DNA of 22,630 bases from contig JAJYSL010000025.1 in assembly GCA_021793595.1 (NCBI GenBank), positions 12,452-35,081 of the forward strand, read 5' to 3'. The stretch is from Acidobacteriota bacterium (lineage in GTDB: Bacteria > Acidobacteriota > Terriglobia > Terriglobales > Acidobacteriaceae). Each line of letters begins with the position of its first letter. Position 1 is the stretch's first letter. The position numbers and the translations under genes are program-made. This document shows positions 12,927 through 16,065 of this stretch, one piece after another. Under the pieces are notes generated by a model. It was not told the DNA's origin and searched no databases. It was given only the letters and a program-made list of their open reading frames with translations.

Positions 12927-13353
12927 TTACTCGCAATGAATCATCCACGGGATGCCGAACGAGTCAGTAAAGATGGCGAACCGCTTCGCCCAAAAGGTTT
13001 GCTGGAGCGGCATATGCACGGCACCGTTGGCCGACAGCGCCTCATAAACCCTGTTCGCTTCGGCAGCGTCCTTCAGGCTGAGCGAAACCGAAAATCCCTG
13101 AGGTGATTGATAGTGGCCTTCCGGCGCATCGGAACCCATCAGCACCGTTGTGCCGACTTTCATTCGGATATGCATCACTTTATTTCGCCACTCCGGCGGT
13201 AATTGCTTCTCCACCGGAGAGCCGGCAAAAGTGTGGATCGCTTCGATTTTTCCGCCGAGGTGTTGTTCATAGAACTTGAACGCTTCCTCGCAATTGGCAT
13301 TGAAATGCTTCCTCGCAATTGGCATTGAAATTCAGATATGGATTCAGATCCAT
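12927..13353 (-). pseudogene. VOC/PhnB-like protein gene, frameshifted by a 25-bp tandem duplication
   Basis: Vicinal-oxygen-chelate fold protein of the PhnB/glyoxalase type, function unspecified. The natural start is ATG 13353, preceded by an ideal AGGAG six bases away, giving MDLNPYLNFNANCEEAF. The frame then fails because a 25-bp unit is present twice in tandem (13282-13306 and 13307-13331). Reading through gives a stop soon after. Removing one copy restores one continuous frame through FKFYEQHLGGKIE to the C-terminus (PLQQTFWAKRFAIFTDSFGIPWMIHCE is intact in parts). The remaining 132-codon frame from ATG 13325 lacks a ribosome binding site but keeps most of the domain, so low expression is possible. 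It is downstream of doxX, 40 bases away. Confidence 0.8.
13282..13331. repeat. Perfect 25-bp direct tandem duplication
   Basis: The unit GCTTCCTCGCAATTGGCATT followed by GAAAT occurs at 13282-13306 and again at 13307-13331 with no mismatch. It shifts the VOC gene by one base (25 = 3x8+1). The absence of divergence suggests a recent slippage event or an assembly/sequencing error. Confidence 0.97.
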
Positions 13354-13392: not shown

Positions 13393-13737
13393 TTACTTCT
13401 CAACTGCCTTCTGTACAAATAGGGGAGCAAAATAATCGCGCAATCGAAATACCAAGATGAGCCAGAGAACAGACGCGACGAGGCCCAAAGGCAAGCCGCT
13501 GGGCTGCATGGCGATATGGAAAACAAGAATGTTGGAGAGGACGGGCGCCAACAACGCCAGCGCCAGCGGTACGAATCGGTTGACCAGCAGCAACGCGCCT
13601 GCGATCACCTGCACGCCAGAAACGAAGTAGACGAAGTGGCTGGCCACGAGTGTGCCGAGAAAAGTTCCAGCCAGGCCGGGGGGCAATGGCGCATGCAAAA
13701 AGTTCAGAAATCCATTCAGGCCGAAGACAAGGAACAT
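13393..13737 (-). CDS. DoxX family membrane protein, 5' end apparently damaged
   Basis: Small integral membrane protein of the DoxX/SURF4-like family (often near VOC and stress genes); exact function unknown. From ATG 13737 it has 114 aa with about four membrane segments, including FLVFGLNGFLNF and, at the end, VASVLWLILVFRLRDYF. Family members normally start about 10-15 residues earlier. Here the frame is open upstream to a stop at 13861-13863 and encodes GGKFVAIIARVLLGL just before this ATG, which looks like the true beginning of helix 1. No ATG, GTG or TTG exists in that extension. The start codon therefore seems lost, or a rare start such as ACG near 13780 is used. It lies upstream of the broken VOC gene on the same strand. 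Confidence 0.7.
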   Translation of the reverse strand: MFLVFGLNGFLNFLHAPLPPGLAGTFLGTLVASHFVYFVSGVQVIAGALLLVNRFVPLALALLAPVLSNILVFHIAMQPSGLPLGLVASVLWLILVFRLRDYFAPLFVQKAVEK

Positions 13738-14082: not shown

Positions 14083-14388
14083 CTATCCTCCAGCGATCGC
14101 TCCTAGAACGATCAACGGTTCTTTTCCAAGAACGATCGCTTCCGGCAATGGATTGTCGGGTGACTCATGCGACAGGTCTTCTTGGCAGGCAAAGAATCGC
14201 AGGAACGGCCGGCGCTGACGTGTGACCTGATCGCGAATGGTTCCGCGCAGCATGGGATAGCGGGCCTCCAGCGCGTCGATGGCTACGCGAAGAGTCGCTA
14301 TCCCCTCCACCTCGACACTCACTTCGCGGCCCACCCCCGCCAGCGTTCGCAGATGCGCCGGCAACTCGATTCGAATCGTCGACGTCAT
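14083..14388 (-). CDS. MoaD/ThiS-family ubiquitin-like sulfur-carrier protein
   Basis: Small beta-grasp protein of 101 aa ending in the di-glycine tail (LGAIAGG) that in MoaD, ThiS and Urm1 is adenylated and thiocarboxylated. Recognisable blocks: [15 protein letters not shown] (5-19), [21 protein letters not shown] (35-55, in parts) and [19 protein letters not shown] near the end. It is somewhat longer than MoaD (about 80-85 aa), with an extra polar segment around [14 protein letters not shown]. The start ATG 14388 overlaps the stop of the BNR gene as ATGA, so translation is coupled. No MoaE, ThiG, ThiF or MoeB gene is nearby, so a role in molybdopterin or thiamine synthesis is not supported by context; a carrier tied to the BNR protein is an inference. 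Confidence 0.85.
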
Positions 14389-15500
14389 CGCAGCGTCTGG
14401 ACCTCCACCGAAAGCACAGCCGGAAGATCGCGCACGATTGGATTCCAACTGTCGCCTGCATCGGCGGAGCAATAGACCTGACCGCCGGTGGTGCCGAAGT
14501 ACACGCCGCATTCGTCCAGCGAATCGACCGACATGGCATCGCGGAGCACATTGACATAGCAGTTTTGCTGCGGCAGTCCCTTGGTCATTGCTTCCCATTC
14601 GTTACCGCCGGTGCGGCTGCGAAATACCTGCAGCTTTCCATCGATTGGATAATGTTCGGAGTCGCTCTTGATCGGGACGACGTACAGCGTTTCCGGCTCG
14701 TGTGCATGTACATCGATCGCGAAACCAAAGTCGGTCGGCAGATTTCCGCTGACCTCCTGCCAGGTGTCGCCGCCATTGTCGCTGCGCATCACGTCCCAAT
14801 GTTTCTGCATAAACAAAACGTTCGGGCGAGAGGGATGCATCGCGATGTGATGCACGCAATGTCCTACTTCGGCATTTGGGTCGGGTATGTATTGCGAATG
14901 CAGACCGCGATTGATTGGCTTCCAGGTTTCGCCGCCATCGTCGGTGCGAAAGGCGCCGGCCGCGGAAATCGCGATGTAGATGCGGCTGAGATTCTCCGGG
15001 TCAAGCAGGATGGTGTGCAGGCAAAGTCCGCCGGCACCGGGCTGCCATTTCGGCCCGGTGCCGTGTTTGCGCAATCCAGACATCTCCTGCCACGACTGAG
15101 CGCCATCGGTCGAACGGAACAGCGCGCCATCTTCCACGCCGGCGTATACAGTGTCAGGATCGGTCAGCGACGGCTCCAGATGCCACACGCGCTTGAACTC
15201 CCATGGATGCGGGGTTCCGTCGTACCACTGATGCGTGCCGGGAACGCCGTCGTACACAAATTTATTGTTCATCGGCTCCCAGGTCTTGCCGCCATCGTTG
15301 GAGCGCTGAATCAACTGGCCAAACCATCCACTGGTTTGCGAAGCGTACACGCGATTGGGATCGACGGGCGATCCTTTCAGGTGATACATTTCCCAGCCGC
15401 CAAAGTGCGGGCCATTCACATCCCAATTCTTGCGCTTTCCATCCGCAGTCAGAACGAACGCACCTTTTCTTGTACCTACCAATACGCGTACGCTGCTCAT
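14385..15500 (-). CDS. BNR-repeat beta-propeller (sialidase-like) protein without signal peptide
   Basis: 371-aa predicted beta-propeller. Six Asp-box (BNR, S-x-D-x-G-x-x-W) motifs are visible: SNDGGKTW (67-74), STDGAQSW (130-137), TDDGGETW (186-193), SDNGGDTW (240-247), SRTGGNEW (295-302) and SADAGDSW (345-352). There is no signal peptide: the protein starts [17 protein letters not shown], so it should be cytoplasmic, unlike secreted sialidases. I see no sialidase FRIP motif, so glycosidase activity is doubtful; automated names such as exo-alpha-sialidase would overstate it. AAAGGAG precedes ATG 15500. Its start overlaps the hxlR-type regulator stop (ATGA) and its stop overlaps the MoaD-like start (ATGA). 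The three are one operon. Confidence 0.85.
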
Positions 15501-15991
15501 CCTTTTCTCCTTTCACTGCTTCGCATTGGGTTGTCTTGCGGTATTTCGTCAAAACGGGGAATCAGGGGCGTCAAATCCCGTTCGCGCCATCGTCTTCGAG
15601 TTTCTGCGAGGACTTGGTCGCGTCCTTTTTCCATCTGGTCGATCAACTCGCATGGCGCCGCAGTCGATTCATACTTTGCGCCCCAGATGAGCAGTTCCAG
15701 CATCACGGGCGCCAAGTCGATGCCTTTCTGCGTCAGGCGATAATGCAGCCGTCGCGCATCGGTTTCATCCGGCTCAGTCAACAAAATGCCGGCAGCCTCA
15801 AGCGTTTTTAGCCGATCCGATAGGACGTTGGAGGAAATGCCTTCGCCTGACTCCTGAAATTCCTTAAAAGTGTGATAGCCCCGGACCATCATGTCGCGAA
15901 TAATCAGGAGCGACCAGCGATCGCCGAATTGCTCCAGCGACATGCTGACGGGACAGCCGGATCGAGGTCGGGATTTTGATTGTTTAGGCAT
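15497..15991 (-). CDS. HxlR/DUF24-family winged-helix transcriptional regulator
   Basis: 164-aa regulator, dimeric winged helix-turn-helix. The family core begins [25 protein letters not shown] (key parts GCPVSM and [10 protein letters not shown]), followed by [29 protein letters not shown] and YRLTQKG, which are the recognition helix and wing. Cys13 sits where many DUF24 members (YodB, HypR, CatR) have a redox- or electrophile-sensing cysteine. About 50 C-terminal residues are an extra helical tail. I chose ATG 15991 ([15 protein letters not shown]); ATG 16006 lies inside the upstream palindrome and GTG/ATG further up is unlikely. The stop overlaps the BNR gene. Two inverted repeats upstream suggest autoregulation of the operon. 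Confidence 0.88.
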
Positions 15992-16000
15992 AAAAAGCAG

Positions 16001-16035
16001 CGCCATATTACTTGCAAAATACAAGTAATATGGCG
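16001..16035. promoter_or_regulatory. Operator-like palindrome O1 at the regulator start
   Basis: Perfect 14-bp inverted repeat: CGCCATATTACTTG (16001-16014), 7-base spacer, CAAGTAATATGGCG (16022-16035). The core CTTG-N7-CAAG is repeated at 16051-16065. It lies just upstream of the hxlR-type gene, covering the expected transcription start, which is typical for an autorepressor. Confidence 0.75.
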
Positions 16036-16064
16036 AAAATAGCAAGAATGCTTGCAAAAGGCAA
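16036..16064 (-). promoter_or_regulatory. Candidate sigma70-type promoter of the regulator operon
   Basis: On the minus strand TTGCCT (16064-16059) and TATTTT (16041-16036) are separated by 17 bases. The -35 overlaps operator O2 and the start site would fall in O1. Both hexamers are imperfect, so this is a plausible rather than firm call. Confidence 0.4.
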
Positions 16065-16065
16065 G
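16051..16065. promoter_or_regulatory. Second operator-like repeat O2
   Basis: CTTGC-AAAAG-GCAAG has the same CTTG-N7-CAAG geometry as the core of O1. The two centres are 40 bases apart, about four helical turns, so two regulator dimers could bind on the same DNA face. GCAAG at 16042-16046 adds a further half-site. Confidence 0.55.

Follow-up and report, generated by a model that had tools for sequence, protein, structure and literature searches.

Three overlapping genes at an acidobacterial locus

The window analysed here, a stretch of 22,630 nucleotides from an Acidobacteriota contig (JAJYSL010000025.1), carries on its minus strand three consecutive genes. They encode an HxlR-family winged-helix regulator (15497..15991), an intracellular Asp-box beta-propeller of the 3b7f type (371 residues; 14385..15500) and a ubiquitin-like beta-grasp protein (UBL; 101 residues; 14083..14388), the last assigned to the MoaD/ThiS/SAMP type from profile resemblance and sequence. 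An earlier reading of this DNA from its letters alone (the sequence-only reading) had described the genes as translationally coupled, and they do overlap, with ATGA at both junctions. The survey described below shows that the propeller and the UBL constitute a real and widespread two-protein module, with an anatomy like that of MoaD-MoaE and a new kind of partner. The module is apparently undescribed: limited open-access literature searches, largely at listing level, returned no description of the pair, and text searches within two papers gave none either (PMC1779556, no match; PMC1949818, a legend abbreviation only). Of the 150 relatives in which a separate UBL gene lies downstream, 110 offer an in-frame UBL start with a 4-nt overlap of the propeller stop, a count biased toward overlap by a script that took the start nearest to the propeller stop.

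The propeller and the UBL travel together

The suspicion that such gene pairs recur in other phyla was borne out, at the level of phylum labels, by a gene-neighbourhood survey. A genome scan with 13 propellers gave 587 confirmed stretches, of which the best 80 were taken as the GTDB set; together with plasmids (10 of 15 matches entered) and samples of Pseudomonadota, Actinomycetota and Acidobacteriota, this made a set of 232 loci with a propeller above 100 bits. A UBL lies within 1 kb on the same strand in 205 of them, downstream of the propeller in 150 and upstream in 55. By source, the paired loci number 6/10 for plasmids, 75/80 for GTDB, 10/12 for Pseudomonadota, 43/55 for Actinomycetota and 71/75 for Acidobacteriota. 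The UBL profile was retrained on adjacent matches, which favours adjacency; the first round had already given 205, and elsewhere in the 232 loci the profile matches only once. Of the best 80 of 587, 76 had a downstream UBL match; two of the four misses had less than 200 nt of sequence left and two (L025, L082) had 6 kb.

Pairs persist with propellers down to 31% identity to that of the window, and the distances among UBLs follow those among propellers (r 0.83 across 81 pairs, vs. at most 0.10 in 1000 permutations). Independent annotation agrees: on plasmids of Pseudomonas aeruginosa and Mitsuaria, a MoaD/ThiS family protein is placed immediately ahead of an exo-alpha-sialidase. The window UBL itself, used as a plasmid query, gave no match. 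In even phylum samples, the propeller occurs in 12 of 199 Pseudomonadota (one match, L129, being remote), 54 of 197 Actinomycetota and 71 of 197 Acidobacteriota genomes. Phylum labels among the best 80 of 587, mostly those of metagenome-assembled genomes and taken as given, are predominantly Acidobacteriota, and further include Gemmatimonadota, Planctomycetota, Eremiobacterota/WPS-2, Hydrogenedentota, Pseudomonadota, Bacillota, Chloroflexota, Verrucomicrobiota, Actinomycetota, Rokubacteria and Syntrophobacter. Within this set (L011-L090), propellers 77-96% identical to the window's sit on contigs labelled with about 12 phyla; such near-identity under many labels suggests transfer or mis-binned contigs. 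At six loci (L027, L044, L054, L062, L069, L084) unrelated genes intervene and the UBL is still within 2 kb; the insert at L027:7152-7681 comprises two genes that look toxin-antitoxin-like by eye.

A conserved GG tail in changing layouts

The window UBL ends AGG, its terminal Gly-Gly being encoded at 14086..14091 (minus strand). It resembles SAMP1/MoaD weakly and scores 15.5 bits against Pfam ThiS (cut-off 22.5); PF02597 is found in most of its fused relatives, and some close homologues carry the name MoaD/ThiS family protein. For both UBL types the best NCBIfam resemblance is SAMP1, at 20.2 and 46 bits (cut-off 60). The GG tail noted in the window is a family trait, kept by 201 of 202 complete UBL domains, the window's included. 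The sole GG-less case is a Nonomuraea UBL that ends VLPALA (L002:4084-4395).

Among the 205 paired loci, the UBL stops directly after GG (hereafter exposed) in 132 downstream and 41 upstream cases, and carries GG plus an extension (capped) in 22; seven are fused ahead of the propeller, two are truncated by a contig end, and the remaining one is the Nonomuraea protein. The sequence-only reading had the carrier working with the propeller or attached to it, and attachment is literal in the fused relatives. The seven UBL-GG-propeller fusions all belong to the 55 Actinomycetota loci, and the 120 best-listed homologues of one such fusion all have the fused length. GG is present in 120 of these 120, and the next four residues take 80 forms. 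A structure model of the fusion (predicted local distance difference test, pLDDT, 91.6; predicted template modelling score, pTM, 0.78) has a single stretch below 50 pLDDT, Val-Ser-Gly-Gly 82-85, which in the model behaves as one would expect of an exposed, cuttable hinge. A reverse fusion, propeller-UBL, occurs in protein P0184, and there GG stays C-terminal. Across terminal, capped, fused and reverse-fused layouts, then, GG is kept and would be either free or freeable by a cut. Long open frames had led us to suspect fusions among the best 80 of 587 GTDB loci as well, and each time UBL and propeller proved to lie in different frames.

A quick tree of 115 propellers, with 47 of 112 inner branches open, implies at least seven changes among downstream, upstream and fused layouts and at least six between presence and absence of a UBL; the starred branches alone force two changes for upstream and one for fused.

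An invariant residue set in a propeller without FRIP or a conserved Tyr/Glu pair

Relatives of the propeller are annotated elsewhere as exo-alpha-sialidase. That the protein is not an ordinary secreted sialidase had been argued from the window alone, and we agree: FRIP is absent, and the N-terminus opens directly with the first strand, with no apparent signal peptide by eye. Of the six Asp boxes then counted, only three are strict (67, 186, 345); by eye, the other three (130, 240, 295) have degenerated. Sialidases have a conserved catalytic Tyr/Glu pair, and an Arg triad is a feature of exo-alpha-sialidases (GH33). Across 63 diverse propellers (<70% identity), no Tyr or Glu is conserved at 85% or more. 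Arg is found at 149, 239, 283 and 320 in 54, 56, 60 and all of the 63, in an alignment that contained no sialidase, and the window has Gly149 and His283 instead. Six residues, H162, S179, H217, Q232, H234 and R320, are invariant in 63 of 63; their positions at strand starts and ends suggest that they gather at one channel mouth. The nearest solved relative, which matches the window propeller over its full length in sequence and fold, is Reut_B4987 of Ralstonia eutropha (PDB 3b7f). A 2009 paper on this Asp-box propeller (PMC2716378) lists seven blades and five Asp boxes, and gives its function as not known.

E1, JAMM and MoaE genes around the pair

In the window, none of the 23 open reading frames scanned has a Pfam match to MoaE, ThiG, ThiF or JAB, in line with the earlier remark that no molybdopterin, thiamine, E1 or desampylase gene is near. 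For E1 and desampylase this absence is not general: an E1-like gene stands beside the propeller in five of the 232 loci, one of which also has a JAMM gene. The expectation was 0.54 (1.44 Mb of flanks, with a density from 32 genomes; Poisson P 0.0002). The E1 genes are downstream in L034 and L182, upstream on the same strand in L187 and divergent in L165 and L221, and the three scanned with Pfam (L034, L187, L165) combine ThiF and rhodanese domains. ThiF is present in all 32 genomes searched. Inspection of L034 also turned up a JAMM gene, some 4 kb from the pair, with E1 and JAMM in one 7-kb stretch; for this JAMM protein desampylase is the best NCBIfam resemblance, below cut-off. The UBL does not appear to be a moaE companion: a separate MoaE is encoded in seven of eight related genomes checked, lying away from the pair, and in five it is within 0.5 kb of another ThiS-family match.

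JAMM matches above 25 bits, the curated threshold, occur in 25 of 25 genomes with capped or fused UBLs vs. 30 of 38 with exposed ones (p 0.013); above 50 bits, a threshold picked after the data had been seen, the counts are 25 of 25 vs. 27 of 38 (p 0.002). Two of the 25 (G483, G550) also carry exposed pairs. In one genome with a fused protein (L261:165-2986), a JAMM gene, a PALP-family (CysM-like) gene and an E1-rhodanese gene are clustered, with no UBL noticed alongside. Passages in the literature describe a MoaD-MoaE fusion whose cleavage by JAMM leaves a C-terminal Gly (PMC8832034) and capped sulfur carriers that require a protease (PMC6006322), and on these precedents we suggest that JAMM matures the capped and fused UBLs.

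An accessory HxlR regulator and recurring neighbours

The window regulator (164 residues from ATG; an alternative TTG start would extend it to 16057) scores 63.2 bits against Pfam HxlR (cut-off 20.8) and has an N-terminal Cys. Ahead of its gene is a 35-bp palindrome (16001..16035), a perfect inverted repeat with 14-bp arms, a 7-bp spacer and the core ACTTG-N7-CAAGT, and a shorter second half-site pair, CTTGC-N5-GCAAG, is at 16051..16065. Of 16 loci with an HxlR related to the window's, 13 share the core of the palindrome, always upstream of the HxlR gene, vs. 1 of 278 other loci, and the palindrome is a predicted HxlR operator; shared descent of the promoter may be an alternative source of the recurrence. 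In keeping with the earlier proposal, a cysteine-bearing HxlR protein with an operator-like palindrome precedes the window pair. The three-gene operon is not, however, the general arrangement: HxlR relatives occur in only 16 loci, 12 of which have the gene ahead of the pair and in the same orientation, and HxlR is an accessory in a minority of loci.

Clustered by BLAST, the recurring neighbours in 202 loci at <90% identity are VOC (16), HxlR (13), YciI (11), a sensor kinase (8), two SRPBCC families (6 and 3) and a sigma factor with DUF6596 (6). Pfam, run on some representatives, confirmed VOC, YciI, sigma and the window's own HxlR, the remaining families being named by eye. These neighbours point weakly to stress or detoxification. 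In the window, the genes just beyond the UBL on its strand encode a VOC/glyoxalase-like protein and a small, probably membrane protein (12927-13325 and 13393-13737).

A possible sulfur-transfer enzyme or modifier system

Taken together, the UBL and the propeller probably form a sulfur-transfer or protein-tagging machine. Our preferred reading, put forward tentatively and by analogy with MoaD-MoaE, is that they are the two subunits of one cytosolic sulfur-transfer enzyme in which the partner is a seven-bladed propeller. The C-terminal GG would be adenylated and converted to a thiocarboxylate by a MoeZ-type E1 that carries a rhodanese domain and whose gene usually lies at another place in the genome. 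The tail would then be presented to the propeller channel mouth, the putative site of the invariant His/His/His/Gln/Ser/Arg set, and sulfur would be handed to a small molecule. Capped UBLs, and those fused ahead of the propeller, would first need their GG freed by a JAMM protease. In the window lineage, the operon would be controlled by the HxlR protein, whose thiol suggests induction by oxidants or electrophiles. More broadly, and with slightly less assurance, we can envisage a bacterial UBL pathway in which a dedicated UBL, E1-activated and, where needed, JAMM-matured, has as its catalytic partner the seven-bladed propeller with its invariant three-histidine site, and which serves thio-metabolite formation or protein tagging under electrophile or oxidant stress.

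Its main rival, which we regard as unlikely but serious, makes the UBL a SAMP/Urm1-like modifier, activated by E1, attached to lysines and removed by JAMM, with the propeller as a ligase-like adaptor, preferred target or reader. The SAMP1 resemblance of both UBL types, the E1 and desampylase-like JAMM of L034, and the fit of stress-type neighbours and HxlR with stress-induced modification all suit it; yet the UBL scores fall below the SAMP1 cut-off, a SAMP1-like sequence cannot tell modifiers from sulfur carriers, and an adaptor would not need the propeller's enzyme-like set of invariant residues. Rather improbable is a UBL that is a non-catalytic structural or regulatory subunit, never activated, with a GG tail that acts as a plug for the propeller channel. 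The internal GG of the N-terminal fusions would be compatible with a plug, as would the peptide-bound structures of related Asp-box propellers (Ycf48 with a D1 peptide and sortilin with a PGRN peptide, from entry titles), but the fusion model is least ordered around the GG, E1 genes occur near the pair more often than expected, and JAMM is found in every capped or fused genome tested. That the annotation is right in making the propeller a glycoside hydrolase, with the neighbouring UBL serving general sulfur metabolism, seems very unlikely given the missing FRIP motif, the lack of a conserved Tyr/Glu pair and of an apparent signal peptide, the residues Gly149 and His283 of the window, the distance correlation and the fusions. 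Hardly credible, finally, is mere hitchhiking of functionally unlinked genes on recently transferred DNA: the 77-96% identical propellers under many phylum labels would fit, but the link is kept in both gene orders and in fusions, with propellers down to 31% identity.

Several observations weigh against the sulfur-transfer reading. An E1 gene is beside the propeller in just 5 of 232 loci, and one of the five, L221, is on a contig that stops within the propeller and leaves no room for a UBL to be seen. The correlation with JAMM is weak and ignores kinship: JAMM is in most exposed genomes too, seven of the 11 genomes below 50 bits have an upstream UBL and may be one clade, and the comparison omits 46 further paired genomes as well as three capped GTDB loci. 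Moreover, 27 of 232 propellers are without a neighbouring UBL (some are at contig edges, and at L062 the UBL is 1.9 kb away), a search of the propeller-bearing genome G107 gave no UBL match at E 0.01, and the site residues are unchanged in orphan propellers (12/12). The propeller may thus work without this UBL, as both these residues and the repeated changes in UBL presence on the tree suggest.

Loci with no UBL neighbour include plasmids from Streptomyces (one) and Rhodobacterales (three), as well as seven Actinomycetota genomes (L001, L003-L005, L144-L150), and the propellers compared among them retain all active-site residues. A candidate residue signature of UBL loss was weak (best column 0.77 vs. 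0.25) and was set aside. Other UBLs in orphan genomes (eight loci) have a threonine-synthase-like neighbour in most cases by eye, L274 being an exception.

Comparison with known systems

The known partner classes of such UBLs, MoaE, ThiG, CysM and the tRNA thiolases, each define a pathway. The propeller, which annotations often call a sialidase, is a new and conserved partner and hence a pointer to an as yet unassigned pathway, with a clear route to its product; the natural fusions could serve directly as single-chain constructs, and the maturation of UBL fusions could be probed through the link with JAMM.

Among HxlR/DUF24 regulators, the window protein is typical in its above-cut-off domain, N-terminal Cys and palindrome adjoining its own gene, but its best named NCBIfam model, RrpB, reaches 47 of 175 bits and it accompanies a minority of loci. 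With SAMP1 and desampylase of haloarchaea, the UBL and the L034 JAMM share their best NCBIfam resemblances, both below cut-off, whereas the pair is bacterial and has a conserved propeller partner. The CysO/MoeZ/Mec cysteine pathway and the capped carriers of the thioplatensimycin/thioquinolobactin type (PMC6006322) have GG tails, some of them capped, a MoeZ-type E1-rhodanese and JAMM; the recurring partner here is instead a propeller, and the window UBL is below the ThiS cut-off. The likeness to MoaD-MoaE, including its JAMM-cut fusion (PMC8832034), covers a small GG-ended beta-grasp protein with its partner adjacent or fused, the fusion order UBL-GG-partner, and E1 (in all genomes searched) and mostly JAMM encoded in genomes with the pair. 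The difference is the partner itself, a beta-propeller in genomes most of which, among those checked, encode a separate MoaE.
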